From Physcomitrium patens (lineage: Eukaryota > Streptophyta > Bryopsida > Funariales > Funariaceae), in contig NC_037258.1 of assembly GCF_000002425.4 (NCBI RefSeq), positions 5,432,033-5,496,032 of the forward strand: a stretch of 64,000 bases of DNA. Direction: 5' to 3'. Below, one piece after another: positions 34,641 to 61,094 of the stretch; the first letter of the stretch is position 1; each line of letters starts with the position of its first letter. Below the pieces are notes generated by a model. That model was not told the origin of the DNA. It worked only from the letters and a program-made list of their open reading frames with translations, and did no database searches. A program made the position numbers and the translations under genes.

Positions 34641-34664
34641 TTGCCTATCACTCGTTGTGGCATT

Positions 34665-37400: not shown

Positions 37401-37458
37401 TTCGAGTATAATGGCTCAAAGTTTCCATTTCCTTGTCACTAGAATCGTTGAAACGTAC

Positions 37459-39276
37459 TCACTGATTATACCTATTCTTTTCATTTGTTGGTTGCTTGTA
37501 ACCAATATCAACCTCTTCTTCATCTTTATATATTCTTGCATCAATAGCATGACTCATTCTAGTTTCGCTCATTAATTGCCTCTTTCGCTTAATGCTGTCA
37601 ATGATAACATCATGAAACTCCTTCTTTGCAATTTCCAAAACTTCTTTCAATATGAATTCCACCTTAGTGTTTAATATACGTTCTTCTAACACCCCTTTCA
37701 AATTTGTTGCCGCTTCAATGTCAGAAAGTAGCTTATAAGCAATTAATTTGCCCTTATCTTTTGTCTCCGTTGTTTTTTCTCCCAATGATGCTGAGGTATC
37801 CTTTATAGGCAATTCTTGTGAAGCTGCCTCTCGAGCCTTGTCTCCTCGAGTTTGCCTCTTAGAAGAATTTCCTACTCTAGTATCATCAAAATTTCCTCGT
37901 CTTTTTTCTTCCATCAAAGCTTCATGTTGGCTCTTAGCAACATATGCATGAACTGAAAGAGACTCAACAGGATCCTCTCAACCTGTTCTTCCTCGTATTG
38001 TAGCTGCAGTTCTCAATAACGCTTCTCGAGGTAATTTCTCTTCTTGCATTGTAGAAACGGCAGAAGCCCAAAACTCACTAGTTTCCGTACTTCCACCAAT
38101 TTCATCATCTACTCTAGCACCATAACTTGCACTTTCTCGTACTACTGTTTCATGCTCTTTTAAGTAATCTTGAACCAATGCTCTCATTCCTCCCTTGCCA
38201 AAATTGGTTTGAAGAAGATCCTTCCTATCTTTCAATGCTATCTTCCCATCTTTCCAGCAAATAATTCCCTGCCATATCATATTATTAAATTCATTGCAAT
38301 CTTTTCTAGTGTGTGAAGCATCATCACACCAAATGCATCTTTGTACATATCCTTGTTTTGAAACATTCTTCGAATTGTTTATAGAAGTATTCTCTTCAAG
38401 TATTGCTAATTTGATTTGAAGATCTCGCATTCCTTGTATAATTTCTTCCATACCCATATCTGCTTTCTTTGACAAGGATGTCGAAGGTTGAACTGTAGGC
38501 ATTGTCGGTGGTGTTGTACGTATTGGAGCTTTGGGTGCTTGTACTGTTTTCGGAATATTGCTCCTATCCTTCCTCCATTCTTTTTTTGTAAGCAACCCCA
38601 CCGCATCTTCAACGTTCTTCCACTTTGTTGTCAATCCTTCATCTTCTTCTTTGTCTTCAAGAAGGAGTTAAAATTTTCCTTGCAATTCTCCATCAGCAGC
38701 TTGAAGAAATAGATCAACTTTGTTCGGCTCCAATGTCAATTTTTCTACCTTCGATAATTGAGAGTACTGCCTCTCAAATTCCCTTAGTAGCTCTGTTGCT
38801 TGTAAATTCTTATTCGGCCGTTCAATCCATCCCAGAAACAGCTTCTTAGTAACGCAATCAGAATCTTCCAAGAAATATTTGTCTTTCAATGCATGTGAAA
38901 AATCCTCCCATGAATTCCCACAACGATCCGTAATCGATGTAATGTGGTCCCTTATCTCCGGTATCGTGGCAAGTCCAAATAGTGCAACCATTTTCTTCTC
39001 AGAAACCCGATTTAATTCCATTTCACGAACATAACATCTTAAATACCTTGAAATATTCCTTCCATCAAATTGATCAATTTTATTGACCACTGCTTGCAAT
39101 GCTTTGGTTGCCAAAGCTTCCTTTTGATCATTGCTTTGCTGTTGCTGCATTGACAATGAGAAGGCTTGAAACAAACTAGCAATAGACGGATCCATGTGCA
39201 TACCTTGTCCTTTAGAAGACTCCCCACTAGAAACTTCTCCCAAAAATCCTTCAAAATTTTTATTTTCGTTTTCCAT
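37459..39276 (-). pseudogene. gag: Gyp-E gag
   Basis: A single frame starts at ATG 39276, only 72 bases inside the 5' LTR, and runs to 37459 with stops near 38666 and 37976. The N-terminal third carries INQFDGRN-like wording (KIDQFDGRNISRYLRCY) and MVALFGLATIPEIRDHI. A CCHC zinc knuckle CIWCDDASHTRKDC lies near 38340-38298. The last part (NLKGVLEERILNTKVEFILK) resembles a region I recall as DUF4100, unverified. It would form the particle. Confidence 0.85.
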
Positions 39277-39325
39277 AAAAATAAAGATAAAATCAACCGA
39301 AATCTAATACCTTCTACCTCAAGCT

Positions 39326-39343
39326 TTCACGTCGGGATCACCA
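39326..39343 (-). promoter_or_regulatory. Gyp-E primer-binding site
   Basis: Four bases after the 5' LTR, the element strand reads TGGTGATCCCGACGTGAA, a tRNA 3'-end complement by its TGG start. This contrasts with the chromoviruses in this window, which lack such a site. Confidence 0.65.
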
Positions 39344-39347
39344 CTTA

Positions 39348-40646
39348 TGTCGTATTACGTGCTTTCCTGCTCGAGAACGCGCCGGGCATCTGGCTGTAGA
39401 AGGTAGTATGGAGATTCGCCGATAGTCAAGCAGTCTATCAGTTTTTGACTGCTGGAATATAAACGACTGCAACAATGTACCGTAAATCTATACGGATGCT
39501 CTTTGACTGCTTGTCGAAGTCTTTTTTTTGCCCCAGCTGATAGGTCTCTAGACGTTACAGAGAACCCCGAACAACCCAAACTGTTAATCTTCAATACCCC
39601 TTTGTACTTACGATCTTGTATCCACTGACTGTCTTGTTAGATTAATCCAATAAATTTCATTCACTCCGCATACTCAATCCTATAGACACCCTTTTAATCC
39701 TTCAATCACAGACGTAACTCGATTCTACAAAACAGTCAAGAGTATTCAAACCCACTTCATTTAAAAATCCCGATTCACCATTACAACACTGACTTCAGCA
39801 GCGATTGCCTCAGTCTTCCCAAAACTCTACGAAGAAGAAAAATCCAAATTCTATGTCTTTCCTTCCCCGACCCGAAGCATGAAGCTCCTCTCTCTAATTC
39901 CCTTGATCTTCAAAACCCTCAATGAAAAAACCGAACTGGTAACCTTGCAGAAGCTCGAAAACTAGCTCCCCCTCCGATTCCCCCCTAACCTTATCCTCTG
40001 AATTTCTTCAATCTTCCGTCTTAGATCCAGAATTGGCTCCCACCTCAAGTTTGGATCCGAAATTGGCTCTCGCCGTCAAGCTTTCTCCTCCATTTTTACC
40101 TTTAAGAAATCCATTTACCAAAAACAACATTCCTTGAAATGGCACAGAGAACACGACAGCCTGAAACAGAATCGAACACCGTAATCGGGACCACATTGAG
40201 TCACCCGACCAATTCAGGTCCTATATTGGGAAAGATGCCCGTAGTAACCTGGATGTTCCCGTAATTGGGTCAAATTGGTCCTCGCATCAGATTGGCTAAG
40301 ACCTGTAGTAAGACCTGGATTTCCCGTAATTAGACTGCATTGGGTTGACCGGCCAATTCAGGTCTCATATTGAATAAGAGGACCCGGATTGGATTATCGA
40401 AATTGGATCCAATTGGCTCCTCGAACCCATCGTGTGAATTGGTCCTTCTCTTCCTACTGACTCCCGTTATTGGAATCGAATGGAGCATTTCAGTATGCCC
40501 CGGCTGACTGTAACGGAGTGACTGAACCTGACCACTCAGTATTTGTACTGGAGTTGGTCGATGCTCCCAATATTCGAGGTAACTGAATATTAATAAAATT
40601 CCCCTTTCTTTTTATTTTCACTGTATACTCGTGTTACAACACGACA
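39348..40646 (-). repeat. Gyp-E 5' LTR
   Basis: Begins and ends like 32049-33364, with scattered transitions and a much shorter T run near 39522. Confidence 0.93.
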
Positions 40647-43233: not shown

Positions 43234-43535
43234 TGTAGAATAGGTAAATAAACTTTGTGGTAAGTTACTGGTTGGTTATTGATAACTTTAAGAATTAGAA
43301 TGATGGTTAGGCAGTTTGGTTAGTAACAATAGGTTGTTAGTAGAATAAATGGTTAAGAATTCAAAGGATCATAACCTTTGAAATTTGCTAGCCGATAGTC
43401 CATCTTTTGGTAGAATAAAGAGCTTGAGGAAAGGAAGATCGGGGCCAGACTGTGAGAGTCATAAGCATAGAGTCCAGACTATGAGAGTCGTAAGCCAAGG
43501 AGCCAGATTGTGAGAGTCATAAGCCAAAGGGCCAA
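43234..43535 (+). repeat. OTA-1 3' LTR, first part
   Basis: Starts TGTAGAATAGGTAAATA like the 5' LTR and ends with three units of the 29-bp tandem repeat. Chr-4 is inserted inside the repeat array. Confidence 0.9.
43440..43535 (+). repeat. 29-bp tandem repeats, first three units
   Basis: Units of the form GCCAGACTGTGAGAGTCGTA followed by AGCCAAGGG. The array continues at 49743 after Chr-4. Confidence 0.85.
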
Positions 43536-43956
43536 TGTCACGGACACAGAATACAGAATTGATATCTACCAAGAAGTTCAAGAAGAACTTGCAAGAACTA
43601 GATTAATCAACTGAATACAAGAACAACACCAGAGAGGTGAGCTAGAGCTCCAAGAGATGTGTTGTCGAGACTGAAGAATTCTTCAACCTCAATTCCAATA
43701 TATACTCCTATTTAGGAAGCTTCTCAAGCAACTTCTACCAACTAAGAAGCTTCTAGAAGGTTCCAGAGACTTGCTTCTAGAAGGTTCTAGAAACTTATCT
43801 CTAGAAGGTTCTAAAGACTATGTCCCCAACATCTTCTACCAACTAAGAAGCTTCTTGAAGGTTCTAGAGACTTACTTTTAGAAGGTTCTAGAAGCTTGTC
43901 TCTAGAAGGTTCTAGAAACTTGTCTCTAGAAGGTTCTAAGGACTATGTCTCTAACA
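43536..43956 (-). repeat. Chr-4 3' LTR
   Basis: On the element strand it starts TGTTAGAGACATAG after the purine tract AAAGGAGGAGGTGA and ends GTGACA. It contains seven heat-shock-element modules, TATATA at 43699-43704 and a perfect 16-bp palindrome CTGAAGAATTCTTCAG at the expected transcript start. Confidence 0.93.
43744..43942 (-). promoter_or_regulatory. Heat-shock-element array in the Chr-4 3' LTR
   Basis: Seven copies of a CTAGAAGGTTCTAG-like module spaced about 22-25 bp, most fitting the heat-shock factor site CTnGAAnnTTCnAG. It lies just upstream of the TATA box in element orientation. The match is seen directly; binding and heat response are inferred. Confidence 0.7.
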
Positions 43957-44102
43957 TCACCTCCTCCTTTAGCTTTGAGGTCTCTGAGAAGCAATATTGT
44001 TGTCAATCAGTACCAATGCAGAAAAATGAAGATCTTTCGCATAACGTCTGTTATGAACTCCAACTGTTATTCACGAGGCAAGTGGTTCATCGGCCCTTGA
44101 AG

Positions 44103-44336
44103 TCAATGGTAGTGGCCCACTCCTTCAACTTCTGACCAAGCATGAACTTTCGTGTCTTCATTGTAAAATTGTCTTGCAAATATGCCTTCTGGTTGACCAT
44201 TGTAAGCAGGCTCGGACTCAAATACAATCACTAGTGATCGGTTACTTAGTATCCTCCATCGTCGTCGTGGTGCAGGTGGTTCTTCATCTCGGGGTTGCCT
44301 TCGTGAATTAGTTGGTTGAGATAATCTAACTCGCAT
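44103..44336 (-). CDS. Chr-4 post-pol ORF (truncated by a stop)
   Basis: ATG 44336 opens a frame of 77 codons. The N-terminus is basic and Arg-rich (RRQPRDEEPPAPRRRWRI), followed by SEPAYNGQPEG and HAWSEVEGVGHYH. It ends at a TGA where Chr-5 has Trp (HYHWLQGPMNHL); homology continues for about 20 codons beyond. No known domain, signal peptide or membrane segment is visible. It lies downstream of pol and of an internal purine tract (44449-44462). A protein conserved in both copies is inferred; its function is unknown. Transcription would be from the LTR. Confidence 0.5.
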   Translation of the reverse strand: MRVRLSQPTNSRRQPRDEEPPAPRRRWRILSNRSLVIVFESEPAYNGQPEGIFARQFYNEDTKVHAWSEVEGVGHYH

Positions 44337-44439
44337 AGTATCTATCTCTTGGCTATCCGTATCAGAAGACCAAACTATGGCTACTGAAAAAATTCTATTT
44401 TATCTTGGAGAAAATAACTACATCAACTATGAATTTTGG

Positions 44440-44462
44440 TGGCGCCCTCCCCTTTTCTTATA
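44440..44462 (-). promoter_or_regulatory. Internal purine tract after Chr-4 pol
   Basis: On the element strand AGAAAAGGGGAGGGCG follows the pol stop by about 35 bases. Chr-5 has AGAAAGGAGGAGAG at the same place. In most chromoviruses the polypurine tract that precedes the LTR stands here, so this may be an old or second tract. Confidence 0.45.
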
Positions 44463-44497
44463 TTCTTAGGTGAGCAAGCTTCAGAAAGAAGCTATTC

Positions 44498-47400
44498 TCA
44501 AACCGGCTTAGATTTATGAGGATGTTGTTGATGAAACTCCTGTACTTTTTGTGGCGCATTGGTGAGATTTTCAGCTGGCTCCCACGTTTGCTCATTAATG
44601 TCCTAGCCGCACCAATGAACAAGATACTCCAACTTGCCCCACCTTCGTCGAGAATCTAGCACCTTTTCAACCTCGTATTCCTCGTGGTTCTTGATCTCAA
44701 TACTAGGTGGTGGACATTGCACTCTTTTAGGAAAAAATGACTCTCCATAAGGCTCCAACAAAGAAACATGAAAGACTGGATGTACCTTCATAGAAGCCGG
44801 TAATTCCAGACGGTACGCCACTGGATTGATTTGCTTTTGGATGATAAATGGTCTCAATCTTTGATAGTCCAACTTATCACATGGTTGCTTGGTCTTGATA
44901 TTCCATCGAAGAAGCCATGCTTTATCTCTAATTTTGAAAGTATGTGCTTGATTCCGAAATCTATCTGCAGACGCCTTGTAGGATTCTTGAGCAGATTGTA
45001 ATTAAAGCTTCATCGTATTTTGAAGCTCTGATAATTGTTTCGCAAATCCTTCAGCTACTGGATTGTTATTTGTTGATGGACTCAATAAATCAAGCTTTCG
45101 ATGATATCCATAGTTGGAAAAGAATGGTGTGTATTGAGTTGACGCATAAAGGGTGTTGTTATATGCAAACTCGGCTAGCTGCAAATATGTGGTCCAATAG
45201 TCTTGCTGATAGTTGATGCTGCATCGTAAGTATTGTTCCAAGACTTGGTTCATCTCTTCTATTTGGCCGTCAGTTTGAAGATGAAAAGCCGAAAAAAGCT
45301 TGATATCCACCTTCAGTATCTCAAAGAGAGATCTCCAAAACTTTGATACGAATTGGGTTCCTCGATCTGATACGATATCATCTAGTAGTCCATGATATCA
45401 ATACACATTATCGAGAAAGAACCTTGCTGTGACTTCACTAGACAATGTCTTCTTACAAGGAACAAAGTACGCCAACTTTGTAAGCCGATCTACCACGACA
45501 AAGATGTTGTCAAATGAGTTTGATGATGGAAGGTCCGTGATGAAGTCCATGGAAACTGAAGACCATGGGCGACGTGGAATCGATAATGGCTGTAAGAGTC
45601 CATAAGGGCGATGCCAAGGATTCTTGGATCTTGAACACATGTCGAAGGAGAGGACAAAATCTTTCACATCCTTCCACATTTGGAGCCACCAAAAATCTTG
45701 AGAAATAAGCTCCAAGGTCTTGTTGAATCCAAAATGTCCTGCAGCTAGAAAATTGTGGTGAGATTAAAGAACTCGGAGTCGTGTTGATCTTTTTGGGATA
45801 TATAACCGCTCTTCAAAGTATAAAAGATCTCCCTCCACCTTGAACTTTTCGTCATTGGCATGCTGCTTAATATCAATTGCTACTGAATCTTCAATGGTTA
45901 CGGTACATACCTGATTCAGGAAATCAACATCAATTGGCATAATAGTAGCGCAAAGCTGAAATTGCTCTAGCTTTAACAATGTCGTACATTGTTGATCAAA
46001 TGCTGCTTCTCTAACCTTTGGTACAAGATACGATCTCCTCGATAAGGTATCAGATAATCCTTGCTGCTTTTCAGGTTGATAAGTGATAATATAATCGAAC
46101 CTAGATAGCAACATATTCCACCGAGCTTGACGTTGATTTAGAACTCGAGCCGACATGAAATACTCCAATCTTGTGATCTGTATATACGATCACTGGATGT
46201 GCAGCTCATCAAGAAAGTGACACCATTCTTGGAAAGAATCCACTATAGCAAGAAATTCCTTATCGTGGATCTCATAATTGATTTCAGCAGTAGAGAACTT
46301 TCGAGAATAGAATGCAACCGGATGTAGCTTCTTGTCTTCTCCCATTTGTGAAAGTACAGCTCCCAAAGCAAAATTTGAAGCATCAGTTTCTCAATAGAAG
46401 GCCTTTGTAAAATCTGGATGTACGAAGATTGGAGTTGTAGTAAATGCGGTCTTCAGGTTTTGAAACGCCTTTTCTGCTAGAGGTCCCCATTCCAGCTTAT
46501 CCTTGCATGTCAACCGAGTGAGAGGAGCAGCAACTTGAGAGTAATTCTTGATGAAGATCCGATAGAAGTTGGTAAAGCTAAGAAAGCATTGTACGTCCCT
46601 CACCGTCTTTGAAACCTCCTAGGACACGATTGCTTCCACTTTCTTGGGATCCATCTTCAAGCCTTTTGTAGTCGCAATGAACCCCAGAAATTCCATCTCT
46701 ATTTGGTGAAATATACACTTCTCCAACTTGGCATATAATCCTCGCTTGCATAGTTTCTTCAAGATCAAACGAACATGTTTTTCATGCTCTTCCTCATTTT
46801 TGGAGAATATCAAAATATCATCCAAATAGATGACAACAAAATCATCAAGGTACTCTCGGAAAATGTCATTCATCATATGTTGAAAGACCGCTGGAGCATT
46901 GGTAAGACCAAAGGACATGACATTATACTCAAAATAGCCATACCTTGTACGAAATGTTGTCTTCCACTCATCTCCTTCCTTGATTCATACAAGGTTGTAA
47001 GCTCTCGTTAGATCAATTTTTGTAAAGATCCTTGCACGTCCAAGTTGTTCTAAGAGACCAGAAATCAAGGGTAACGGATAATGATTCTTCTTTGTTATCT
47101 TAATGAGGCCTCGATAGTCCATGCACATCCGCAACAAGCCATCTTTCTTCTTCACAAATAAGATGGGTGCTCCAGTTGACGATTTTGAATGGTGGATGAA
47201 GTTCTTGGCTAGATTCTCGTCGATGTACTTGTGCAACTCTGCCAACTCCATCTGCGATAGATTGTAGATTGGGCCAAAAGGTGGTTGTGCTCCTTCCTGT
47301 AAGTCTATGACGCAATCATATGGTCTGTGTTCCGGTAGCATGTCGGTATTTTTCTTTTGAAACACGTCTTTAAAATCCTTATATTGCTCCGGTATACTTG

Positions 47401-47995
47401 CTATCGAGATCTTCTCCCCGGTAGTTGGAGCCGCATAAATGATAAACGATGTGCCTCCCTTAGACAATCTTATAAATGCTCTTGCTCCAATAAATAAGGA
47501 TTTCTCTATTCGGGGTTTTCTACTAGGCTTGCTCTTGGGTGGTTTTGTGGAAAAGGTCATCTTCCGTAACTTCCAATCTATGAATGGGTTATGCTTTTCC
47601 AACCAGGAAAGACCAAGAATAATAGGATTTGATGGGGTTCTAATAATATTGAAAATAATATGACTACTATGGTCCTTAAACGTCACTTCTATAGGTTCTG
47701 ATTCATGGGTGACACTACCTGACAATAAAGGTCGCCCATCTATGACCTCAACGTGAACAAGTTTGGATTTTTGTACTAAAGGGATCTTATGACGCTTTGT
47801 AAATTCTTTGTCTAAGAAATAAGCAGATGCTCCTGAATCTAATAATGCTAAGGTTCTCAGTTTCTGAGGGCCAATAAACGAAGGGATTGTAAAAAAAAGG
47901 GCAGCTTGAGCAGAAAGAAAGGAACCTCGTTGTTGTTGCGATATTTCACCGTCCAGCTGTACGGTTCCTATTGTGGCTGGGCATCCTCGTTTTCT
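44498..47995 (-). pseudogene. pol: Chr-4 pol: protease, RT, RNase H, integrase, chromodomain
   Basis: Protease is at about 47950-47600, its active-site region near 47840 (DSGASAYFLD). RT has ILFVKKKDGLLRMCMDYRG, SFGLTNAPAVFQHMMND and the intact catalytic box YLDDIL (near 46820). RNase H includes [14 protein letters not shown] and [15 protein letters not shown]. Integrase has the zinc-binding end CSRSKNPWHRPYG, the Asp in SMDFITDLP and HLQTDGQIEEMNQVLEQ around the Glu. The chromodomain is EVEKVLDSRRRWGKLEYLVHW (two blocks, 44695-44600). Stops interrupt it at several points, most shared with Chr-5. A 1-base loss plus the shared 2-base loss near 46200-46165 cancel each other. Confidence 0.92.
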
Positions 47996-48993
47996 AAAAT
48001 AAACGCGCCCCTAGTCTTGATAATACGTCGATTTTGCTTCTTGGAGCAGTTTCCAACTTTGTGGCCTTCTTCACCGCAATACAAGCATAGACCTTCCTCC
48101 ATACGCCGCTTTTTTTCTTCTAGAGTAAGAGATTTGACATGTAACGCATCAATTTGCATGTCTTTTACCTCTGAATGTGAATTCACGCTGCTTGCCAACA
48201 TAGTTGGGGTGTGGCGAACCGTAAGTTGTCTTGAACGTTGGTCTTGGCGACGTTAAAATAGGCGGTTATCGCACTTCACAGCTTGGCTAATAGCTTCGTT
48301 GAGGGTTTGCGGATCAGGAAGAGTTAACAGCAAATCCTTCACGTCGTCCCTTAAACCCCAATAGAATTGACTCATCAACGCTTCTTCGTCCCAATTGATG
48401 TCACATGCTAATTGCCTGAAGTTCGATGCATAGACTAATGTAGAACGCATCCCTTGTCATAGTGACCGAATCTTTGTTGTAGCCCATCGAACCTTATCGT
48501 GTTCACCAAATGCTTCCGCAAACGCCTCCAAAATGGTTTCAAAGTTGTTTAGTATGGACGATCGTTTCTCAAACAAAGGAGCAAACCATGATAGAGCTTG
48601 TCCTGTAAGTAAGGTTCCAACAAGTCCAACACGTGACTCCTCCGTTGGATAGTCTTCGGGTTGTAAAACTGTTATCAATTTGATTTGGTTGACGAATCCT
48701 CGAAACTTGGAATGTGTACCATCGAACTTGTCCGGAAGGCTAACTCGGGGCTCCTTATGTTGTAGAATCAGCGGTGCTTGTCGAACTTGAGGCAAAGTTG
48801 CTTCTCCAAGTATAGAAGTTTGAGGCTGGTGCAACCTAGATTGTGCCATCCCAGATGCTCCATCATTATGAAGCCTTGCCACGACTCCTTCAATCTCTGT
48901 AGTTCTTTGCGATAACGTAGTGAGGGCATTCATGATAGCAACTAACTTGGACTCTGAACTTTCCGTCATACTAATGTCTTGGCTCCCGACCAT
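47968..48993 (-). pseudogene. gag: Chr-4 gag
   Basis: ATG 48993 opens the frame. Gag reads through VSLPDKFDGTHSKFRGFV, ALSWFAPLFEKRSS and KDLLLTLPDPQTLNEAI to a CCHC zinc knuckle (CLYCGEEGHKVGNC, near 48088-48047), and stops at TAG after EDAQPQ. Only two internal stops are present (near 48454 and 48252), the first shared with Chr-5. Pol follows in the -1 frame, overlapping the end of gag. Confidence 0.9.
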
Positions 48994-49260
48994 TCGAAGA
49001 GAAGGATAGAAATGACTCTACAAGAAGACAATATTGGTTTAGGGGAGGGTACTCCGCAACCTCTAAAATGCCTTAAGAGCTTCAAGAGAAGGAATAATCC
49101 ACTCTCTCCAAGAAGGATAAGACTCCAATATTGTAACAAAAGAAGTATCAGTTTAGAGGAGGGTAATCCGCAACCTCTAAAGTGCTAGTACACTTCCAAG
49201 CAGAGGGGTAATCCACACTCTAACAAAGAAGAAACTAGCTTTGATATCTAAGTTGAGTGA

Positions 49261-49273
49261 AGTCTCGACAAAC
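49261..49273 (-). promoter_or_regulatory. Chr-4 primer-binding site, self-priming type
   Basis: The element strand directly after the 5' LTR reads GTTTGTCGAGACT. The LTR segment at 49410-49398, 32 bp after the TATA box start, reads AGTCTCGACAACA. The two are complementary at 11 of 13 positions. No tRNA-type TGG site abuts the LTR. Confidence 0.7.
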
Positions 49274-49742
49274 TGTCACGGACACAGAATACAGACTTGA
49301 TATCTACCAAGAAGTTCAAGAAGAACTGGCAAGAACTAGATTAATCAAATGAATACAAGAACAACACTAGAGGGGTGAGCTAGAGCTCCAAGAGATATGT
49401 TGTCGAGACTGAAGAACTCTTCAGCCTCGATTCCAATATATACTCCTATTTAGGAAGCTTCTCAAGCAACTTCTACCAACTAATAAGCTTCTAGAAGGTT
49501 CTAGAGACTTGCTTCTAGAAGGTTCTAGAAACTTATCTCTAGAAGGTTCTAAGGACTATGTCCCTAATATCTTCTACCAACTAAGAAGCTTCTAGAAGGT
49601 TCTAGAGACTTGCTTCTAGAAGGTTCTAGAAGCTTGTCTCTAGAAGGTTCTAGAAACTTGACTCTAGAAGGTTCTAAAAACTTGTCTCTAGAAGGTTCTA
49701 GAAACTTGTCTCTAGAAGGTTCTAAGGACTATGTCCCTTACA
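49274..49742 (-). repeat. Chr-4 5' LTR
   Basis: Starts TGTAAGGGACATAG and ends GTGACA on the element strand. It has nine heat-shock-element modules, TATATA at 49437-49442, and a dyad at the predicted start. Confidence 0.93.
49485..49730 (-). promoter_or_regulatory. Heat-shock-element array in the Chr-4 5' LTR (nine modules)
   Basis: Nine CTAGAAGGTTCTAG/A modules. They form two blocks separated by a second copy of the LTR-start phrase (TATGTCCCTAATATC), so the U3 start was duplicated. The array ends about 45 bp from the TATA box. Confidence 0.75.
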
Positions 49743-49916
49743 GCCAAACTATGAGAGTCGTAAGTCAAGGGGTCAAACTTTGAGAGTCGTAAGCCAAGGG
49801 GCCAAACTATGAGAATTATAAGTCAAGGAGCCAGACTATGAGAGTCGTAAGCCAAGAGGCCAAATTATGAGAGTCGTAAGCCAAGGGGCCAGACTGTGAG
49901 AGTCGTATGCCAGGGC
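49743..49916 (+). repeat. 29-bp tandem repeats, last six units
   Basis: Continuation of the array at 43440-43535, giving nine units in the OTA-1 3' LTR against one in the 5' LTR. Confidence 0.85.
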
Positions 49917-50369
49917 AAGCTTGGTGCTACTTCTTTTTGTTTCTCTGTTGTTGACGAGTAATTCATAGTTTTTGAATACTGAGAAGTTAGTCTGAAATGC
50001 CATATTGTGAGAGTCGTAAGCCAAGATATTAAATTTTGTGTGATGAATTGAGAAACTGAATACAATAGGTAAGTTAGAGATCAGTAATTGAATATATATA
50101 AACCACAAAGAGAGTAAGTGGGAGATGAACGGATAAGAATATAAAAGTATTGTTGAATTGATAGTCATAGAATGGATTATGTGTTGAATTAAGATGGAAG
50201 TAGTAAGCCTTGGTGTTTTGTAGTTTGATAATTGATTTCAGATAGCTCGAGTACAGTCAATTGTAACACTAACAGACCCAATTCATATAACCAATCTTTT
50301 TCCGTGTTTGAACCTAACTCTATTAGTTTAATTGCTTTTGTATACTAAAGCTTGAATACAATGAGAACA
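49743..50369 (+). repeat. OTA-1 3' LTR, second part
   Basis: Continues the LTR after Chr-4 and matches 15510-15980 to its end CAATGAGAACA. Confidence 0.88.
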
Positions 50370-50370
50370 G

Positions 50371-50850
50371 TAGAAGCAGATCAAAATTTTGAAGATTTTT
50401 ATAATAAATCAAGCTTTATCTAAGGTTGCATCTATTTCAATATCCTAATGGATTTACTTAAGTTAGATTCATATGCACACTTCTATCAAGAAATATTCTT
50501 TCTTGGTTTGTACCTTTAATAAAAAAGAATTTACAATTATTTTATGATTTAGATTCATTCTTAAAATTATTTATGGCCTTATTTAGAGAAAGTGATAAAA
50601 AAAGAGTAGCAAAGACTAAAATCTTATCTTTACAATAAAAATCATGGTGAGCTATTATATATGTTGTTGAATTCCAAAACCTCACTTATAATATGGACTA
50701 GAATGACAAAGTTCTTATCAATCAATTTTTATATGCATTGAAGAATAATATCAAAGATTTGTCATTGATAATATGAAAGGTAAAAAGTCATTTGTTATCT
50801 TCTAGAGATGTTATGCATGAAGCAATTTCTTTAAATATAGCAATTGAAGA
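50371..50850 (+). pseudogene. gag: Chr-3 gag, second part
   Basis: Resumes with RSRSKF-RFL and continues with ILSWFVPLIKKN and NQFLYALKNNIKDLS, aligned with ALSWFAPLFEKRSS and KDLLLTLP in Chr-4. Many stops are present. Homology then passes directly to the middle of the protease, so the zinc knuckle and protease active site are missing. Confidence 0.6.
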
Positions 50851-51158
50851 TCATAATAGCATAGTAATATTTAATATAATAAGATCTTCATGTAATCTAG
50901 TTATTTTAAAATTATCTTAATTAAAAAATATAATCTTTAGATAGATTGGATTTCTTGTGACCTTAATTTTTTTGATAGTTTAATCCAAAATCTTGTTAGT
51001 CAAATAGAAATATATAAGTCTAGTACATCCAAATCTTTATTGATAGGTGCAAGAACTTTCATGCATGCTATTAAAAAATGGTAATTTTTTGCTGTGTATG
51101 CAATGTCCATTTTTGATGGTGAAAAGACCTCAAATAATATTTCTAGCTAGTATCCGGG
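50851..51158 (+). pseudogene. pol: Chr-3 protease C-terminal part
   Basis: VIFNIIRSSCNLVILKLS corresponds to IIFNIIRTPSNPVILGLSW in Chr-5. It runs to the Chr-5 insertion point after NISS-Y. The catalytic DSG is deleted. Confidence 0.6.
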
Positions 51159-51550
51159 TGTTAGGAACATAATTCTTAGAACCTTCTAGAGACAAGTTTC
51201 TACAACCTTCTAGAAGCAAGTCTCTAGAACCTTCTAGAAGCTTCTTAGTTAGTAGAAGATATTAGAGACATAGTCCTTAGAACCTTCTAGAGATAAGTTT
51301 CTAGAACCTTCTAGAAGCAAGTCTCTAGAACCTTCTAGAAGCTTCCTAGTTAGTAGAAGTTGCTTAAGAAGCTTCCTAAATAGAAGTATATATTAGAATC
51401 GAGGCTGAAGAGTTCTTCAGTCTCGACAACATATCTCTTGGAGCTCTAGCTCACCTCTCTGGTGTTGTTCTCATCTGATTAATCTAGTTCTTGTTAGTTC
51501 TTCCTAAACTACTTGTTAGATCTCGAGTCTGTATTTCTGTGTCCGTGACA
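51159..51550 (+). repeat. Chr-5 5' LTR
   Basis: U3 begins TGTTAGGAACATAA and carries six heat-shock-element modules. TATATAT is at 51387-51393, and the dyad CTGAAGAGTTCTTCAG is at 51405-51420. The predicted transcript start AGTCTCGACAACA is at 51419-51431. U5 ends GTCCGTGACA. Confidence 0.93.
51175..51346 (+). promoter_or_regulatory. Heat-shock-element array in the Chr-5 5' LTR (six modules)
   Basis: Six CTAGAACCTTCTAG-like modules, three in each of two blocks, because the U3 start is duplicated (TTAGAGACATAGTCCTTAG at 51269). One module is mutated (TCTACAACCTTCTAG). The array ends about 40 bp before the TATA box. Confidence 0.75.
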
Positions 51551-51563
51551 TGTTGTCGAGACT
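51551..51563 (+). promoter_or_regulatory. Chr-5 primer-binding site, self-priming type
   Basis: TGTTGTCGAGACT starts at the first base after the 5' LTR. It is the exact 13-base reverse complement of AGTCTCGACAACA at 51419-51431, which begins 32 bp downstream of the TATA box start. In Tf1 of fission yeast the first 11 bases of the transcript anneal to such a site and prime reverse transcription. No tRNA complement abuts the LTR. Confidence 0.8.
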
Positions 51564-51854
51564 TCACTCACCTCAGATATCAGAGCTAGTTTCTTCTTTG
51601 TTAGAGTGTGGATTACCCCTCTGCTTGGAAGTGTACTAGCACTTTAGAGGTTGCGGATTACCCTCCTCTAAACTGATACTTCTTTTGTTACAATATTGGA
51701 GTCTTATTCTTCTTGGAGAGAGTGGATTACCCCTTTTTTTGAAGCTCTTAAGGCATTTTAGAGGTTGCGGAGTACCCTCCTCTAAACCAATATTGTCTTC
51801 TTGTAGAATCATTTCTATCCTTCTCTTAGAATAGCCGGGGGCCAAGACATTAGT

Positions 51855-52856
51855 ATGACAGAAAGTTCAGAGTCCAAGTTAGTTGCTATCATGAATGCCC
51901 TCACTACGTTATCGCAAAGAACTACAGAGATTGAAGGAGTCGTGGCAAGGCTTCATAATGATGGAGCATCTGGGATGGCACAATCTAGGTTGCACCAGCC
52001 TCAAACTTCTACACTTGGAGAAGTAACTTTGCCTCAAGTTTGACAAGCACCGCTAATTCTACAACTTAAGGAGCCCCGAGTTAGCCTTCCAAACAATTTC
52101 GATGGTACACGTTCCAAGTTTTGAGGATTTATCAACCAAATCAAGTTGATAACAGTTTTATAGTCCGAACGCTATCCAACAAAGGAGTCACGTATTGGAC
52201 TTATTGGAACCTTACTTACAGGACAAGCTCTATCATGGTTTGCTCCTTTGTTTGAGAAACGATCGTCCATACTAAACAACTTTGAAACCTTTTTGGAGGC
52301 GTTTGCAGAAGCATTTGGGGAACACAACAAGATTCGATGGGCTACAACAAAGATTCGGTCACTATGACAAGGGATGCGCTCTACATCAGTCTATGCATCA
52401 GACTTCAGGTAATTAGCATGCGACATCAATTAGGATGAAGAAGCGTTGATGAGTCAATTCTATTGGAGTTTAAGAAATGATGTGAAGGATTTGCTGTTAA
52501 CTCTTCCTGATCTACAAACGCTCAACGAAGCTATTAGCCAAGCTATGAAGTGCGATAACCGCCTATTTCAACACCGACAAGATCAACGTTCAAAACAACA
52601 TATGATTCACTATGCTCCAACTATGTCGGCAAGGAGTGTGAATTCACATTCAGAGGTAGAAGACATGCAAATTGATGTGGTACGTGCCAAACCTCTTACT
52701 CTACAAGAAAAAAAGCGGCGTATGGAGGAAGGTCTATGCTTGTATTGCGGTGAAGAAGGCCACAAAGTTGGAAACTGTCCCAAGAAGTAAAATCGATGTA
52801 TTGTCAAGACTAGAGGCACGTTTATTCAGGAAAATGAGGATGCCCAGCTACAATAG
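51855..52856 (+). pseudogene. gag: Chr-5 gag
   Basis: ATG 51855 starts MTESSESKLVAIMNAL. The frame shows ALSWFAPLFEKRSS, QFYWSLRNDVKDLLLTLP and the zinc knuckle CLYCGEEGHKVGNC (near 52732-52773), and ends at TAG 52854 after EDAQLQ. About eight in-frame stops occur and no indel. One stop (IRSL-QGMRS, near 52366) is shared with Chr-4. Pol overlaps in the -1 frame. Confidence 0.88.
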
Positions 52857-55800
52857 GAACCATGCGGCTGGACAGTGAAATATCGCAACAACAACAAGAT
52901 TCTTTTCTTTCCGCTCAACCTGCCCTTTGTTTTACAATCTCTTTATTTATTGGCCCTCAGAAATTGAGAACCTTAGCATTATTAGATTTAAGAGCATCTG
53001 CTTGTTTCTTAGACGAAGAATTTGTGAAGTATCATAAGATCCCTTTAGTACAAAAATCCAAACTTGTTCACGTTGAGGTCATAGATGGGCGACCTTTACT
53101 ATCTGGTAGTGTCACCCATAAATCAAAACCTATAGAAGTGACGTTTAAGGGCCATAGTAGTCATATTATTTTCAATATTATTAGAACCCCATCAAATCCT
53201 GTTATTCTTGGTCTTTCCTGGTTGGAAAAGCATAACCCATCTATAGATTGGAAGTTATGGAAGATGACCTTTTCCACAAAACCACCCAAGAGCAAGCCTA
53301 GTAGAAAACCCCGAATAGAGAAATCCTTATTTATTGGAGCAAGAGTATTTATAAGATTGTCTAAGGGAGGCACATCGTTTGTCATTTATGCGGCTCCAAC
53401 TACCGGAGAGAAGATCTCGATAGCAAGTATACCGGAGCAATATAAGGATTTTAAAGACGTGTTTCAAAAGAAAAATACCAACATGCTATCAGAACACAGA
53501 CCATATGATTGCGTCATAGACTTACAGGAAGGAGCACAACCACCTTTTGGCCCAATCTACAATCTATCGCAGATGGAGTTGGCAGAGTTACACAAGTACA
53601 TCGATGAGAATCTAGCCAAGAACTTCATCCGCCATTCAAAATCGTCAACTGGAGCACCCATCTTATTTGTGAAGAAGAAAGATGGCTTGTTGCGGATGTG
53701 CATGGACTATCGAGGCCTCATTAAGATAACAAAGAAGAATCATTATCCGTTACCCTTGATTTCTGGTCTCTTAGAACAACTTGGACGTGCAAGGATCTTT
53801 ACAAAAATTGATCTAACGAGAGCTTACAACCTTGTATGAATCAAGGAAGGAGATGAGTGGAAGACAACATTTCGTACAAGGTATGGCTATTTTGAGTATA
53901 ATGTCATGTCCTTTGGTCTTACCAATGCTCCAGCGGTCTTTCAACATATGATGAATGACATTTTCCGAGAGTACCTTGATGATTTTGTTGTCATCTATTT
54001 GGATGATATTTTGATATTCTCCAAAAATGAGGAAGAGCATGAAAAACATGTTCGTTTGATCTTGAAGAAACTATGCAAGCGAGGATTATATGCCAAGTTG
54101 GAGAAGTGTATATTTCACCAAATAGAGATGGAATTTCTGGGGTTCATTGCGACTACAAAAGGCTTGAAGATGGATCCCAAGAAAGTGGAAGCAATCGTGT
54201 CCTAGGAGGTTTCAAAGACGGTGAGGGACGTACAATGCTTTCTTAGCTTTACCAACTTCTATCGGAACTTCATCAAGAATTACTCTCAAGTTGCTGCTCC
54301 TCTCACTCGGTTGACATGCAAGGATAAGCTGGAATGGGGACCTCTAGCAGAAAAGGCGTTTCAAAACCTGAAGACCGCATTTACTACAGCTCCAATCTTG
54401 GTACATCTAGATTTTACAAAGGCCTTCTATTGAGAGACTGATGCTTCAGATTTTGCTTTGGGAGCTGTACTTTCACAAATGGGAGAAGACAAGAAGCTCC
54501 ATCTGGTTGCATTCTATTCTCGAAAGTTTTCTACTGTTGAAATCAATTATGAGATCCACGATAAGGAATTTCTTGCTATAGTGGATTCTTTCCAAGAATG
54601 GCGTCATTTTCTTGAAGGAGCTGCACATCCAGTGATCGTATATACAGATCACAAGATTGGAGTATTTCATGTCGGCTCGAGTTCTAAATCAACGTCAAGC
54701 TCGGTGGAATATGTTGCTATCTAGGTTCGATTATATTATCACTTATCAACCTGAAAAGCAGCAAGGATTATCTGATACCTTATCGAGGAGATCGTATCTT
54801 GTACCAAAGGTTAGAGAAGCAGCATTTGATCAACAATGTATGACGTTGTTGAAGCCAGAGCAATTTCAGCTTTGCGCTACTATTATGCCAATTGATGCTG
54901 ACTTCCTGAATCAGGTACGTGCCGTAACCATTGAAGATTCAGTAGCCATTGATATTAAACAGCATGCCAATGACGACAAGTTTAAGGTGGAGGGAGATCT
55001 TTTATACTTTGAAGAGCAGTTATATATCCCAAAAGGACCAGCACGACTCCGAGTTCTTCAATCTCGCCACAATTTTCCAGCTGCGGGACATTTTGGATTC
55101 AACAAGACCTTGGAGCTTATTTCTCAAGATTTTTGGTGGCCCCAAATGTGGAAGGATGTGAAAGATTTTGTCCTCTCCTTCGACATGTGTTCAAGATCCA
55201 AGAATCCTTGGCATCACCCTTATGGACTCTTACAACCATTATCAATTCCACGTCACCCATGGTCTTCAGTTTCCATGGACTTCATCACGGATCTTCCATC
55301 ATCAAACTCATTTGACAACATCTTTGTCGTGGTAGATCGGCTTACAAAGTTGGCGTACTTTGTTCTTTGCAAGAAGACATTGTCTAGTGAAGTCACAGCA
55401 AGGCTCTTTCTCGATAATGTGTATTGATATCATGGACTACTAGATGATATCGTATCAGATCGAGGAACCCAATTCGTATCAAAGTTTTGGAGATCTCTCT
55501 TTGAGATACTGAAGGTGGATATCAAGCTTTCTTCGGCTTTTCATCCTCAAACTAACGGCCAAATGGAAGAGATGAACTAAGTCTTGGAACAATACTTACG
55601 ATGCAGCATCAACTATCAGCAAGACGATTGGACCACATATTTGCAGCTAGCCAAGTTTGCATATAACAACACCCTCTATGCGTCAACTCAATATACACCA
55701 TTCTTTTCCAACTATGAGTATCATCCAAAGCTTGATTTATTGAGTCCATCAACAAATAACAATCCAACAGCTGAAGGATTTGCAAAACAACTATCAGAGC

Positions 55801-56327
55801 TTCAAAATACATTGAAGCTTCAATTACAATCCACTCAAGAATCCTACAAGACGTCTACAGATAGATTTCGGAATCAAGCATCTACTTTCAAAATTGGAGA
55901 TAAAGCATGGCTTCTTCGACAGAATATCAAGACCAAGCGACTATGTGATAAGTTAGACTATCGAAGATTGGAACCATTTATCATCTAGAAGCAAATCAAT
56001 CCAATGGCGTACCGTCTGGAATTACCGGCTTCTATGAAGGTATATCTAGTCTTTCATGTTTCTTTGTTAGAGCCTTATCGAGAGTCGTCTTTTCCTGGAA
56101 GAGTACAATGTCAGCCACCTAGTATTGAGATCGAGAATCACGAGGAATACGAGGTTGAAAAGGTACTAGATTCACGACGAAGGTGGGGCAAGTTGGAGTA
56201 TCTTATTCATTGGTACGACTACGACATTAATGAGCGAACGTGAGAGCCAGCTGAAAATCTCGTGAATGCGCCGCAAAAGGTACAGGAGTTTCATCAACAA
56301 CATCTTTATAAACCTAAGCTGGTTTGA
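52820..56327 (+). pseudogene. pol: Chr-5 pol: protease, RT, RNase H, integrase, chromodomain
   Basis: The 325-codon piece 52862-53839 covers protease (site region ALLDLRASACFLD, with the usual DSG changed to DLR) and the RT N-terminal half. RT continues at 53906 with SFGLTNAPAVFQHMM and YLDDIL. RNase H ([17 protein letters not shown]) carries a 2-base deletion at about 54652-54657 (HK-LEYF), after which the frame changes. Integrase follows in a 256-codon open piece (54657-55427) with HFGFNKTLELISQDFWWPQM, CSRSKNPW, SMDFITDLP and IVSDRGTQF. The chromodomain EVEKVLDSRRRWGKLEYLIHW (two blocks) lies near 56150-56215. The stop is at 56325. Confidence 0.92.
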
Positions 56328-56363
56328 CGATAGCTTCCTTCTAAAGCTTGCTCACCCAAGAAT

Positions 56364-56378
56364 ATAAGAAAGGAGGAG
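56364..56378 (+). promoter_or_regulatory. Internal purine tract after Chr-5 pol
   Basis: AGAAAGGAGGAGAG stands shortly after the pol stop and about 490 bp before the 3' LTR, the counterpart of the tract in Chr-4. Confidence 0.45.
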
Positions 56379-56488
56379 AGTACCACCAAAATTCATAGAT
56401 AATGTAGTTATTTTTTCCAAAATAAAATAGAATTTTTTCAGTAGCCATAGTTTGGTCTTCTGATACGGATAGCCAAGAGATAGATACT

Positions 56489-56788
56489 ATGTCAGTCAGA
56501 TTATCTCAACCAACTAGCTCACGAAGGCCACCCCAAGATGAAGAATCGCCTACACCATGACGACAACGAAGGATACCGAGTAACCAATCATTGGTGGTTG
56601 TATTTGAGTCCGAGCCTGCTTATGATGGTCAGCCAGAAGGCGTGTTTGCAGGACAATTTCACAATGAGGATACGAAAGTTCATGCTTGGTCAGAAGTTGA
56701 AGGAGTGGGCCACTACCATTGGCTTCAAGGACCGATGAACCACTTGCCTCGTGAACAACAGTTGGAGTTCATAGCAAACGTTATGTGA
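56489..56788 (+). pseudogene. Chr-5 post-pol ORF, about 99 codons, one stop
   Basis: ATG 56489 opens a frame to TGA 56786 with a single internal TGA where Chr-4 has an Arg codon. The protein has an Arg- and Pro-rich start (RLSQPTSSRRPPQDEE), then VVVFESEPAYDGQPEGVFAG, HNEDTKVHAWSEVEGVG and GHYHWLQGPMNHLPREQ. I recognise no domain. The C-terminal block also survives in Chr-1 and Chr-3, so the ORF predates the split of these families. Its place after the integrase is where some retroelements carry an extra or acquired gene. Function not assigned. Confidence 0.55.
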
Positions 56789-56865
56789 CAGATCTTCATT
56801 TTCTTGTGTTGGTACTGATCAACAACATTGCTTCTCAGAGACCTCGAAGCTAAAGAAGGGGGTGA

Positions 56866-57204
56866 TGTTAGAGACATAATCCTTAGAACCTTCTAGAGAC
56901 AAGTTTCTAGAACCTTCTAGAAACAAGTCTCTAGAACCTTCTAGAAGCAAGTCTCTAGAACCTTCTAGAAGCAAGTCTCTAGAACCTTCTAGAAGCTTCT
57001 TAGTTGGTAGAAGTTGCTTGAGAAGCTTCCTAAATAGAAAAATATATTGGAATCGAGGCTGAAGAGTTCTTCAGTCTCGACAACACATCTCTTGGAGCTC
57101 TAGCTCACCTCTCTGGTATTGTTCTCATCTGATTAATCTAGTTCTTGTCAGTTCTTCTTGAACTTCTTGTTAGATCTTGAGTCTGTATTTTTATGTCCGT
57201 GACA
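56866..57204 (+). repeat. Chr-5 3' LTR
   Basis: Starts TGTTAGAGACATAATCC. It lacks the duplicated U3 block seen in the 5' LTR and has TATAT at 57043, a start-site dyad, AGTCTCGACAACA at 57073-57085, and ends GTCCGTGACA. Confidence 0.93.
56883..57000 (+). promoter_or_regulatory. Heat-shock-element array in the Chr-5 3' LTR (five modules)
   Basis: Five modules CTAGAACCTTCTAG at about 24-bp spacing in one uninterrupted block, the simplest array of the four LTRs. Confidence 0.75.
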
Positions 57205-60130
57205 CAAGATTTCTAAGATGTTTTTAAAAAAAATATATATAAATATCCTTTCAAATCATAGTTTTTATGATTATTCCATTGATTTTGAAGAAGGAACTCA
57301 ACTACTATTTGGACCAATCTATAGCCTATCATAAAAAAAATTGGCTATACTTAAGAAATATGTTCATGAGAATTTGGCTAAAAATTTTATATGCCATTCT
57401 AAATCTCCAAGCAAGGCTCCTATCTTATTTCTAAAGAAAAAAGATAAATCTTTACAAATGTGTATGGACTATCAAAAATTCAATAAAATTACTATTAAGA
57501 ATATGTATCCTCTATATTTGATTTCAAGACTTCTTAATCAATTCAATCAAAAAAAGATCTATTAAAAAATAGATCTATAAAGAACATATAATTTGGTACA
57601 TATTAAAGAAGGAAATTAATAAAAAAAATTATATTTTGAACCAAATATGGACATTTTGAATATAATGTCATGCCTTTTAGACTCACAATTGAATCAATTA
57701 TATTTCAACATCTAATGAATGATATCTTTTATGAGTTTCTTAATGATTTTGTCATCTATTATTTAGACAATATCTTAATCTACTTAAAAAACATAAAAGA
57801 GCATAAAGTTCATATTCATCTTGTGTTACAAAAACTTAAAGATGTAGGATTATATGCCAAGTTAGAAAAATGTATATTCCACACTATTCAAGTTAACTTC
57901 TTAGGATACAATATTTCTAATAAAAAGCTAATGATAGATCTAAACAATGTCTAGACTATCATAGATTGAAAGATCCAAGAATAGTAAGTAATGTATAATA
58001 CTTTTTGAGCTTTGCTAATTCCTAATGGATCTTCATTAAGAATTTTTCTCAAGTTGCAATTCTACTTACACATTTGACTTGTAAACGCAAACTTAAATGG
58101 AGTAAAGAAGCAAAAAAATCATTTAATGCTTTACAAAAAGAATTTATTTTTGCACCATACTTACATTGTGTTGAATTTTTCAAGGTATTTTTTATGGAAA
58201 AAAAATACATCAGACTTTGTTTTGGGTGCGGTATTAACACAAATGTGAGTAGATAATAAACTTCATCCATTAACTTTCTATTCTAAAAAAATTCAGTAAC
58301 TAAGATTAATTATGATATCTACAACAAAGAGCTTCTTGCAATTATAGATTCACTTTAAGAATGGCATCATTATCTAGAAGGCGCCTTGAATCTAATCACC
58401 ATATATACAAATCACAAGAATCTTGAGTACTTTATGTTAGAATATATTTTAAATTATTACTAAGTTCATTAAATCATATTTATAGCAAGATTTGATTTCA
58501 AAATCACATATCAACTCAGAAAACAACAAGCTTTGTTGGATGTCTTTTTTAGACGTTCTTAACTTCGATTAAAAGAAAAAAAAAAAATGCATCTTTTGAT
58601 TAGCAAAGAACAATTCTCTTGAAGTGAGAGTATTTTCACCTTCATGCAATAAAATCAACATTGTCTGTTGATTCAATCTTTGTCAAGCAAATTCAATGAA
58701 GTATGTCTTTTGATCTTTTCATCTATAATATCAAGAATAATTCTTCTAAATCTCATAATACTTCTAAGTTCAAGTTCAAGAATAATATACTCTTTTTTGA
58801 GGGACGATCATATATTTCAAAAAGTGACGCACAATTACGTATTTTTCAAGCTCGTCATGACTTTCTAATAGCCGGAAATTTTAGATACAACAAGACTTTG
58901 GAGCTAACATCAAAAGATTTTGAGTAGCTTCAAATGTGGCAAGCAGTCAAAGACTTTGTATAATCATGTGATATTTGTTCAAGATCCAAAACTCTTTGCA
59001 ATCAACCTTATAGACTTTTTCAGCCATTGTTTATTCTAAAATAATCATGGTCTTCTGCTTCTATGGATTTTATCATAGATCTTTTAATTTCAAATTTATA
59101 TGGTTTTATATTTATAATAGTAGATCATTTTATCAAGATGGTATATTTTATATTATATACAAAATCTATTACAGATAAAGAAATAACTAAGTTTTTTTTT
59201 TATAACATCTATTGCTATCATAGATTACTCAAGGTTATTATATCAAATAAGAAACTCAATTTGTATCAAGATTTTAAAATAAAATAAAATAAAATAAAAA
59301 ATAAAGATAGATATAAAGTTCTTTTTGAATTTTCATCTTCAAACTGATGGACAAATAGAAGGAAGGAATCAAGTTCTAAAGTAGTATTTGAAGTGTACTA
59401 TTAATTATCATCAAGTTGATTAAACAACTCTTTTACTAAAGGCAGAGTTTGTGTATAATAATTTAATATACTCTTCTACTCAATAAATACCTCTCTTTGC
59501 TAATTATGACTTGATACTTTTGACTTTTCAAAAGTTGATGATTTTGTGGTAAAAGATTTGGAAATTTTTTTGTTAAAGTTACATACAATAATAAAGACAT
59601 AATTAAAGGGAGCTCAAGAACAACAAAAGATCAATATGGATGCCTATTACAAAAATCAATTATAATCTAATGTAGATGATAAGGTATGATTATTCTATTG
59701 TAATATCAAGACTATTCATCATTGTGACAAGTTGGACTATTGTAGGCTTCAACCTTTTCCTATTTGTGAGTAAGTGAATTCTGTTGCTTATCAATTACAT
59801 AAATTGGAGTCTATGAAGAACCATATTATATTTCACATATCTCTTTTTGAGCCATATAAGATAGTGAATATCTTAGAAAGAAGACAAATACCACTTCTTT
59901 CTATAGAAATGAATAATAATCAAGAGTTTGAGGTGGAAGAAGTCTTAGATTCAAAGTGGTACTAAATAGGTTGAAATATCTTATTTACTGGCATCGATAT
60001 GATATTAGTAAATATATATGAGAGCTAATAAAGAATCTTATAAATGTAGCAAAGAGAATTGAGGCTTTTTATCAACAACATTCATCAAATTTAAAACAAA
60101 GAATAACAAATCTTCATTACAAAGGAAATA
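57205..60130 (+). pseudogene. pol: Chr-3 pol remnant: RT to chromodomain
   Basis: Continues after Chr-5 with QDF-DVF. RT wording (FICHSKSPSKAPILFLKKKD) is at 57370-57445 and the catalytic box, changed to YLDNIL, is near 57765. RNase H is near 58070-58400 and integrase near 58700-59500 (SMDFIIDLLIS, CCY-H..). The chromodomain is at about 59900-59960 (SIEMNNNQEFEVEEVLDSK). Frames change often and stops are dense. It is highly AT-rich. Confidence 0.75.
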
Positions 60131-60199
60131 AGATCTAAAAAAGATTACATAATGTAGAGTAAAAGATAAGACATTGTGATTGTCACAACCTTCAAGATA

Positions 60200-60571
60200 A
60201 TATAATCAAAATGAAGATCTTTAAGGATGATATGTCTTGCCTTGAATAGATGGCAATATACAATGTGTTTGATATCACAACCTTAGAAGAGACTCCTAAT
60301 GTTTGGTGATTTTATTAGAGGTAGGAACAACTCCTAACAGTGTTTCAAATATTTTATTTGAACAAAGTTATGAAGGCCTCAACAATAATCAAATAACAAG
60401 GTGGTCTTTCCACCTTAGTATGAAACATTATCAATGGCTGAGAGGACCTATCAACCATCTTTGAAGAAAACAAAGATCAAAGTATGTGGCAAATATAATT
60501 TGTCGCATCTTGAATTTCTTCAACATAATATGACAGTTCTTCATCAAACTTATCTCTAAAGGGAGAGATAA
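60200..60571 (+). pseudogene. Remnant of the post-pol ORF in Chr-3
   Basis: A frame near 60330-60560 reads FEQSYEGLNNNQITRW and KHYQWLRGPINHL and then VANII, aligned with GHYHWLQGPMNHLPREQ and FIANVM of Chr-5. The polypurine tract AAAGGGAGAGA precedes the LTR. Confidence 0.5.
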
Positions 60572-61094
60572 TATCATGGACATACATATTTACTATGATA
60601 TTTTCCTATATGATTAAGTAGTATATAAAAATAAACTTATTTAATAATATTTTCTAGAAAAGCTTCCTAGAAGCTTCATAGATGCTGCTTTGACTTTACA
60701 TGTATTTGTTGATTGATATAATAGAAACTTGGTCAATAAATTAATCACGTGTTGGTAGATTACGGAATAAGCTAACCATGTAGCGTATAAATAGAAAACT
60801 TCTCTTATAAGTTAAAATACGTGTTTTATAAAGTCAACATGTTTTAGAGGTCCTACAGGACATTGCCACATAACTCCTTATTAATAGTATGTATGGAGGC
60901 AAGAGTGAAGTCTTCTTTACTCTTGTCAATGTCTTTCTAGTCTTTAGTTTTTTTTCAAGACTTTCTAGTTTTCTTGTCTTTGGCAATAGCCATTCTAATT
61001 TAATACCATATCATCTTTGAGTGACTTTCTAATCCTTTTGAGTGACACAAGAATGTATTAAGGATTTCTTTCTTGAATATTCATATCTCTGACA
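60572..61094 (+). repeat. Chr-3 3' LTR
   Basis: Starts TATCATGGACATACAT and ends CTCTGACA. It retains GAAGCTTC-type half sites (CTAGAAGCTTCATAG near 60668) that may be ancestral to the heat-shock-element arrays. Confidence 0.8.

Follow-up and report, generated by a model that had tools for sequence, protein, structure and literature searches.

The window, by which we mean the whole 64,000-nucleotide stretch of Physcomitrium patens DNA that was analyzed, contains two decayed copies of a Ty3/gypsy chromovirus: element B on the plus strand (51159-57204) and its sister, element A, on the minus strand (43536-49742). The two are 94% alike over 5.8 kb and represent one chromovirus family. B has a 5′ LTR of the TG...CA form (51159..51550, +) and a 3′ LTR (56866..57204, +), and A has its 5′ LTR at 49274..49742 (-) and its 3′ LTR at 43536..43956 (-). 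A 5-bp TSD, TTGGC, lies outside both LTRs of A and therefore places the LTR end at ...GTGACA / ...CCGTGACA, confirming the end of the 5′ LTR of B, where no TSD is visible. A is inserted in a 29-bp tandem repeat array (43412-43535, 49743-49920), which itself carries TTGGC. B is nested in an element of a second chromovirus family, between the PR and RT parts of that element, whose pieces are found at 50375-51132 and from 57242 onward (flanks 50375-51157 and 57205-61081). The U3 regions (51159-51360, 49466-49742, and 56866-57013) hold 24-bp tandem units that contain CTTCTAGAAG palindromes; the number of units varies and is unequal between the 5′ and 3′ LTRs of a single copy. A further LTR element (32049-40646, -) has TGGTGATCCCGACGTG a few bases past its 5′ LTR, a sequence resembling a PBS of the tRNA type.

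The protein-coding parts of B are all on the plus strand. The gag region (51831..52364, +) is interrupted and by tblastn is 88% identical to positions 48460-48993 of A, an open stretch that matches DUF4939, with Ty3_capsid below its cut-off. PR and the start of RT occupy an open stretch (52862..53839, +) that ends at the same in-frame stop in B (53837-53839) and in A (46985-46987). The two copies also appear to have additional RT and RNase H stops in common; such common stops imply either that a defective lineage multiplied or that the same sites were hit twice. The end of RNase H and the start of the integrase (Integrase_H2C2) follow at 54657..55427 (+), and the end of the integrase (SH3_Tf2-1, PF24626, above its cut-off) and the start of the chromodomain at 55989..56240 (+). 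The chromodomain model PF00385 was matched in two stop-shortened stretches with E values of 3e-05 and 7.1e-05 (24.3 and 23.1 bits versus a cut-off of 25.1), and the rest of the domain was seen in another open piece. B thus has the chromodomain at the integrase C terminus by which chromoviruses are recognized. In B, inspection by eye showed the aromatic residues of the classical type (CHD_I), Y24, W45, and Y48 (EEYEVEKVLDSR and HWYDY); a stop interrupts the third aromatic place in A. A classical CHD_I chromodomain with these three residues marks the Tcn1 clade, according to the available parts of PMC3350952 and PMC6317226. Most of the best 120 matches in each protein search were nameless; the organisms named among them were a frog (45%) and Absidia, a fungus (39%), for the INT of B and the fern Ceratopteris (54%) for the PR-RT of A. 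The Ceratopteris richardii protein (P0163) combines a DUF4939 gag with RT and is 54% identical to the PR-RT of A. As judged from sequence comparison, the protein parts are Tf1/sushi-like and, together with the apparent host, make the elements look like Tcn1-clade chromoviruses.

Complementarity at the LTR edge

The 13 bases directly after the 5′ LTR of B (51551-51563) are the exact reverse complement of LTR positions 51419-51431 (TGTTGTCGAGACT versus AGTCTCGACAACA), a segment that begins 32 nt after the start of the TATA box (TATATATT, 51387..51394, +; conserved in 41 copies); on both points the sequence-only reading was accurate. Placed by its spacing from the TATA box, the presumed transcript start coincides with the start of a putative 11-nt self-primer (AGTCTCGACAA, 51419..51429, +). 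The genome (470.4 Mb in 101 contigs) was searched for family copies, and 41 were compiled: both window copies, plus 39 matches from a listing of 40 whose remaining entry was B itself. The unit shared by these 41 copies is 2 nt followed by the 11-nt TTGTCGAGACT, and the spacer is mostly GT or AT, with TG in B only. The 13-nt match of B, exact as it is, thus amounts to 11 family nucleotides plus 2 private bases, and a 13-nt family unit was ruled out. Accordingly, a 2-nt spacer (51551..51552, +) separates the LTR of B from the presumed self primer-binding site TTGTCGAGACT (51553..51563, +), the complement of the element's own start segment; the 11-nt site of A is at 49261..49271 (-).

The pairing is common to a large family. 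The site matched its own transcript-start segment without mismatch in 29/41 copies. A larger set (81 copies offered, comprising the 41 above and 40 more, of which 80 were readable and 3 were removed as duplicates) gave 77 copies with 0 mismatches in 47, 1 in 24, 2 in 4, and 3 in 2. The LTR-end/leader frame CGTGACA-N14-CACTCA has 574 genome matches versus 7 for the reversed control, and 98 of the first 100 listed belong to this family (family 1). B is a member of a numerous chromodomain Ty3/gypsy family. A search for R starts without upstream U3, which could map the start, returned 1 match, an ordinary subfamily LTR. No relatives were confirmed in the viral contigs and genome contigs searched; two pattern matches lie in viral contigs (L009 and L010), where by our own estimate a few such matches would be expected by chance for 17 fixed bases.

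Short complementarities of 7 to 8 nt are frequent and could in principle arise by coincidence. When the LTR was replaced by Markov-1 random sequence in 20,000 draws, with offsets of 0 to 3 allowed, a match of at least 12 nt appeared in 0/20,000 random LTRs and one of 11 nt in 3. Among 5,171 start points within B, none reached 11 nt and 4 reached 10 nt. Chance complementarity is accordingly given a negligible probability, the more so because the match recurs, with compensating changes, in a second family (see below).

The same reading had stated that no tRNA complement abuts the LTR, and this holds: a TGG first appears at offset 58, and the initiator-Met tRNA (iMet) shares at most 5 nt within the first 25 nt, where iMet was compared base by base and the remaining tRNAs by the TGG rule only. 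The genome has 12 iMet matches, and two fetched stretches were both called tRNA-Met by ARAGORN. The iMet PBS of tRNA-primed plant chromoviruses, TGGTATCAGAGC, is absent directly after the LTR; present instead is the TGG-less TATCAGAGC (51578..51586, +) at offset 27, an exact 9-nt match to the acceptor-stem complement of the genome's own iMet, of a length reached in 5/5,000 shuffled leaders. Subfamilies 1a and 1b share this stretch with L084 from the second group; it was not seen in family-2a leaders. Priming by iMet at this stretch would account for the match and its recurrence, but the stretch is preceded by AGA where CCA would need TGG, leaving the terminal primer base unpaired; continues with TAG-TTTC in place of the GAGGTTTC of the tRNA complement; and is about 25 nt too far downstream for the LTR end. 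On geometry and the CCA mismatch, iMet priming at TATCAGAGC was rejected, and we regard it as highly improbable. The stretch is possibly a relic of an older tRNA PBS.

A second family and the U3/R hairpin

A second family was found from the LTR at 60574-61081, with 30 loci, 11 of them readable as 5′ LTR plus site. Its presumed start is ACTCTTGTCAA (e.g., L070), and its site TTGACAAGAGT (L085) follows 2 nt past the LTR. The pattern GATAGTTTGACAAGAGTNCTAACTT has 2,229 genome matches at ≤3 mismatches versus 0 for the control. The LTR ends were set where the 5′ and 3′ copies part, as a TSD marked them at 0/30 loci. R differs between the two families at 3/11 positions, and the site differs at the 3 partner positions, so that the commonest letters of R and site pair at 11/11 positions within each family and at 8 to 9 of 11 across families (G-U counted as a pair). 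Individual family-2 copies (n = 11) show 0 to 3 mismatches between start and site. In both families, the complementarity ends at the presumed start, 31 to 32 nt past the TATA box start as counted by eye.

The co-variation of start and site that the sequence-only reading had proposed as a check is therefore seen between the two families, but it is absent within family 1, where 77 copies have 38 mismatches versus 37.7 when copies are shuffled. The compensating changes strengthen the self-priming reading, which remains the best explanation of the data despite the lack of covariation inside the family. They also weigh against priming at TTGTCGAGACT by some different RNA of the cell, for example a half-tRNA produced by internal cleavage. 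Primers of this kind occur in some plant Ty1/copia lineages, as described in the consulted part of PMC6317226, but an accidental match to the element's own start would be needed in two families of different sequence, and even the whole iMet shares no more than the 5 nt given above; we consider this explanation very unlikely.

A second conserved pairing borders the presumed start. In B, the arms 51399-51410 and 51415-51426 and the loop 51411-51414 form a U3/R hairpin (51399..51426, +; TCGAGGCTGAAG-AGTT-CTTCAGTCTCGA) directly before and over the start, with 12 pairs and -18.9 kcal/mol; 0/500 mononucleotide shuffles were equally stable. The five hairpins evaluated (B twice, A, and two second-group LTRs) range from -18.6 to -20.3 kcal/mol, each with 0/500 shuffles as stable. 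The second-family LTR in the window has its hairpin, with presumed start 60919, at 60896..60931 (+). Examples from other copies are CCGAGACTGAGG-GGAT-CCTCAGTCTCGA in subfamily 1b (L130) and GCAAGAGTGAAG-CCTT-CTTCACTCTTGT in family 2a (L070). Pair cells are kept at 97.4% in the 77 copies of 1a, 82.6% in 1b (12/21 loci readable), and 92.4% in 2a (11/30 readable). The two arms differ in concert between 1a and 2a, with 12/12 own pairs against 10 and 9 when crossed. In 1b, the commonest letters form 10/12 own pairs versus 10 and 11 when crossed with 1a, so compensation is limited to the comparison of 1a with 2a.

In both families, the 3′ arm of the hairpin contains the primer start. If transcription begins at A51419, the 5′ arm would be absent from the 5′ end of the RNA, because U3 is not transcribed there, and both arms would be present in the 3′ LTR, where the second primer-sequence copy of B (57073-57083) lies inside the hairpin. 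The hairpin would thereby hide this second copy from the site. It may also be a promoter palindrome with a role at the DNA level.

The complementarity between R and the site could instead serve RNA folding (packaging, dimerization, or translation control) while something else primes. When the 5′ end of the RNA was folded in silico, R did pair with the site, in the minimum-energy structure as well as in the centroid, and the hairpin at the U3/R border is a second conserved fold; the 5′-end fold as a whole is no stabler than shuffles (z, -1.12; 31/200 at least as good). A primer must nevertheless end at the LTR edge, where iMet does not fit and no CCA-type site is near, and the second family has the same 2-nt offset and the same length of 11 nt. 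A purely structural role is thus judged unlikely.

The variable base after the site

The base that abuts the site in B (51564..51564, +) is T in 50, G in 13, A in 12, and C in 2 of the 77 copies, ranking first of 422 columns for both entropy and transversions (25/77 transversions, with 14 and 11 in the next columns). Among the 98 family-1 matches listed, 26 transversions fall on this base and ≤3 on each of the other 13 positions. In family 2, the base is A15 G15 C2 T1 in the 33 matches that agree at all 24 other positions and G56 A32 C7 T5 in the best 100 matches; another position varies as well (T46 A21 in 67 matches with one mismatch). The share of bases other than T depends on the sample, at 21/41, 6/40, and 29/98. 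In the 40 copies from the start of the listing, the base is T in 34/40 and falls outside the 15 columns of 2,501 that are richest in transversions, most of which are far downstream in a gappy 2.5-kb alignment, with two in the LTR. In subfamily 1b, it is A in 12/12 readable copies. Unusual variability is therefore present in two of three groups, though in a sample-dependent manner.

On a tree of the 77 copies with the tested sites masked, the base undergoes 26 of at most 27 possible changes, versus a mean of 24.9 in 30 shuffles, and thus shows no detectable inheritance. This tree has no starred branch, and 61/74 inner branches are open. Three of 13 control sites changed less than in every shuffle (11, 8, and 18 versus minima of 12, 9, and 22); the other 10 carry no signal of inheritance, which marks the tree as weak. 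On an earlier 41-copy tree, the base changed 16 times of a possible 21 (without shuffles). A nearest-neighbor comparison of the 77 copies without the tested column gave 0.511 versus 0.470 expected (P = 0.29), a test of low power, as the transversion controls at -42 and -48 were likewise without signal.

The base after the site may mark the 5′ end of the primer. We infer that RT, on copying the self-primer to its 5′ end, would add a base or copy a wobbling start. Were a copied cap the cause, C would be expected; C is rare at this base.

Proposed mechanism and relation to known systems

Taken together, the high-copy chromodomain Ty3/gypsy family of B very probably uses Tf1-type self-priming. Transcription would begin at A51419, and the first 11 nt would fold back onto TTGTCGAGACT, separated from the 5′ LTR end by 2 nt; the potential to pair is present in the sequence, and its use is predicted. 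RNase H would then cleave after nucleotide 11, and RT would extend the freed end via the 2-nt spacer into U5, which would set the LTR end at ...GTGACA, as the geometry allows. The primer copy of the 3′ LTR would be locked in the U3/R hairpin, consistent with its conserved pairing, leaving only the 5′ copy free to prime.

A joint reading goes further, and we offer it tentatively as a scenario with more doubt than support. It combines a switch of primer, in which an old iMet site that has lost its CCA partner persists about 15 nt past a newer self-site; a two-state device, in which the U3 arm, the transcript start, and the PBS evolve together and the primer is free at the 5′ end and locked at the 3′ end; and a variable base that records the primer 5′ end. 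If it is true, self-priming was added to an earlier tRNA-primed state, and simple inheritance from a Tf1-like ancestor in fungi would not explain it. The putative relic of a tRNA site is relevant to the origin of self-primed chromoviruses in plants, whether from fungi or by a primer switch within plants. The variable base, if confirmed, might reveal self-primer 5′ ends from genomes alone. One genome with two high-copy families that have different, compensated primer/site pairs makes the mechanism testable on natural copies.

Tf1 of Schizosaccharomyces pombe is a chromodomain Ty3/gypsy element, and the first 11 nt of its mRNA are reportedly complementary to a site adjacent to the LTR. The families described here resemble it in the 11-nt start/site complementarity beside the LTR, and the integrase end of B matches Pfam SH3_Tf2-1. 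They differ in that the host of Tf1 is a fungus and in that their own priming is predicted from sequence. To our knowledge, a U3/R hairpin and an iMet-like stretch are not known features of Tf1, and we know of experimental proof of self-priming in few elements, Tf1 above all.

The sequence-only reading had set its proposal against plant chromoviruses in general as tRNA-primed, a contrast that does not apply to this lineage. In the part of Neumann et al. 2019 (PMC6317226) at hand, Tcn1 elements of mosses and club-mosses are grouped with Tf1/sushi and are mostly without a tRNA PBS, with self-priming as the predicted mode; in this they differ from the remaining plant chromoviruses. The idea of self-priming for the lineage is thus already in print, and the general idea is not new. 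Within the literature searched, which covered passages of the main texts of these sources, there was no mention of the U3/R hairpin, the variable base, or the iMet relic for these elements; these and the covariation between two families are new in that scope.

P. patens elements have been placed in the Tcn1 clade (Novikova et al. 2010, PMC2864245, in the section available), and the families here share with that clade a classical chromodomain with its aromatic cage, a 5-bp TSD (in copy A), and self-priming of the kind predicted for most of its members. They differ from SM-Tcn1 of Selaginella, for which the same section of the 2010 paper reports neither tRNA priming nor self-priming as evident. 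Judged by its description in the accessible text of Vendrell-Mir et al. 2020 (PMC7466625), RLG1 comprises 5,092 complete copies of a gypsy element with a chromodomain and is expressed in P. patens protonema; family 1, likewise gypsy with a chromodomain and thousands of copies, may, judged from this likeness, be RLG1. Tj1 of S. japonicus, by the description in the portion of PMC4600332 consulted, is an active element whose mRNA has a 5′ end complementary to the PBS, from which self-priming is proposed; it differs from the families here in its fungal host and shares with them the complementarity of PBS and transcript start.
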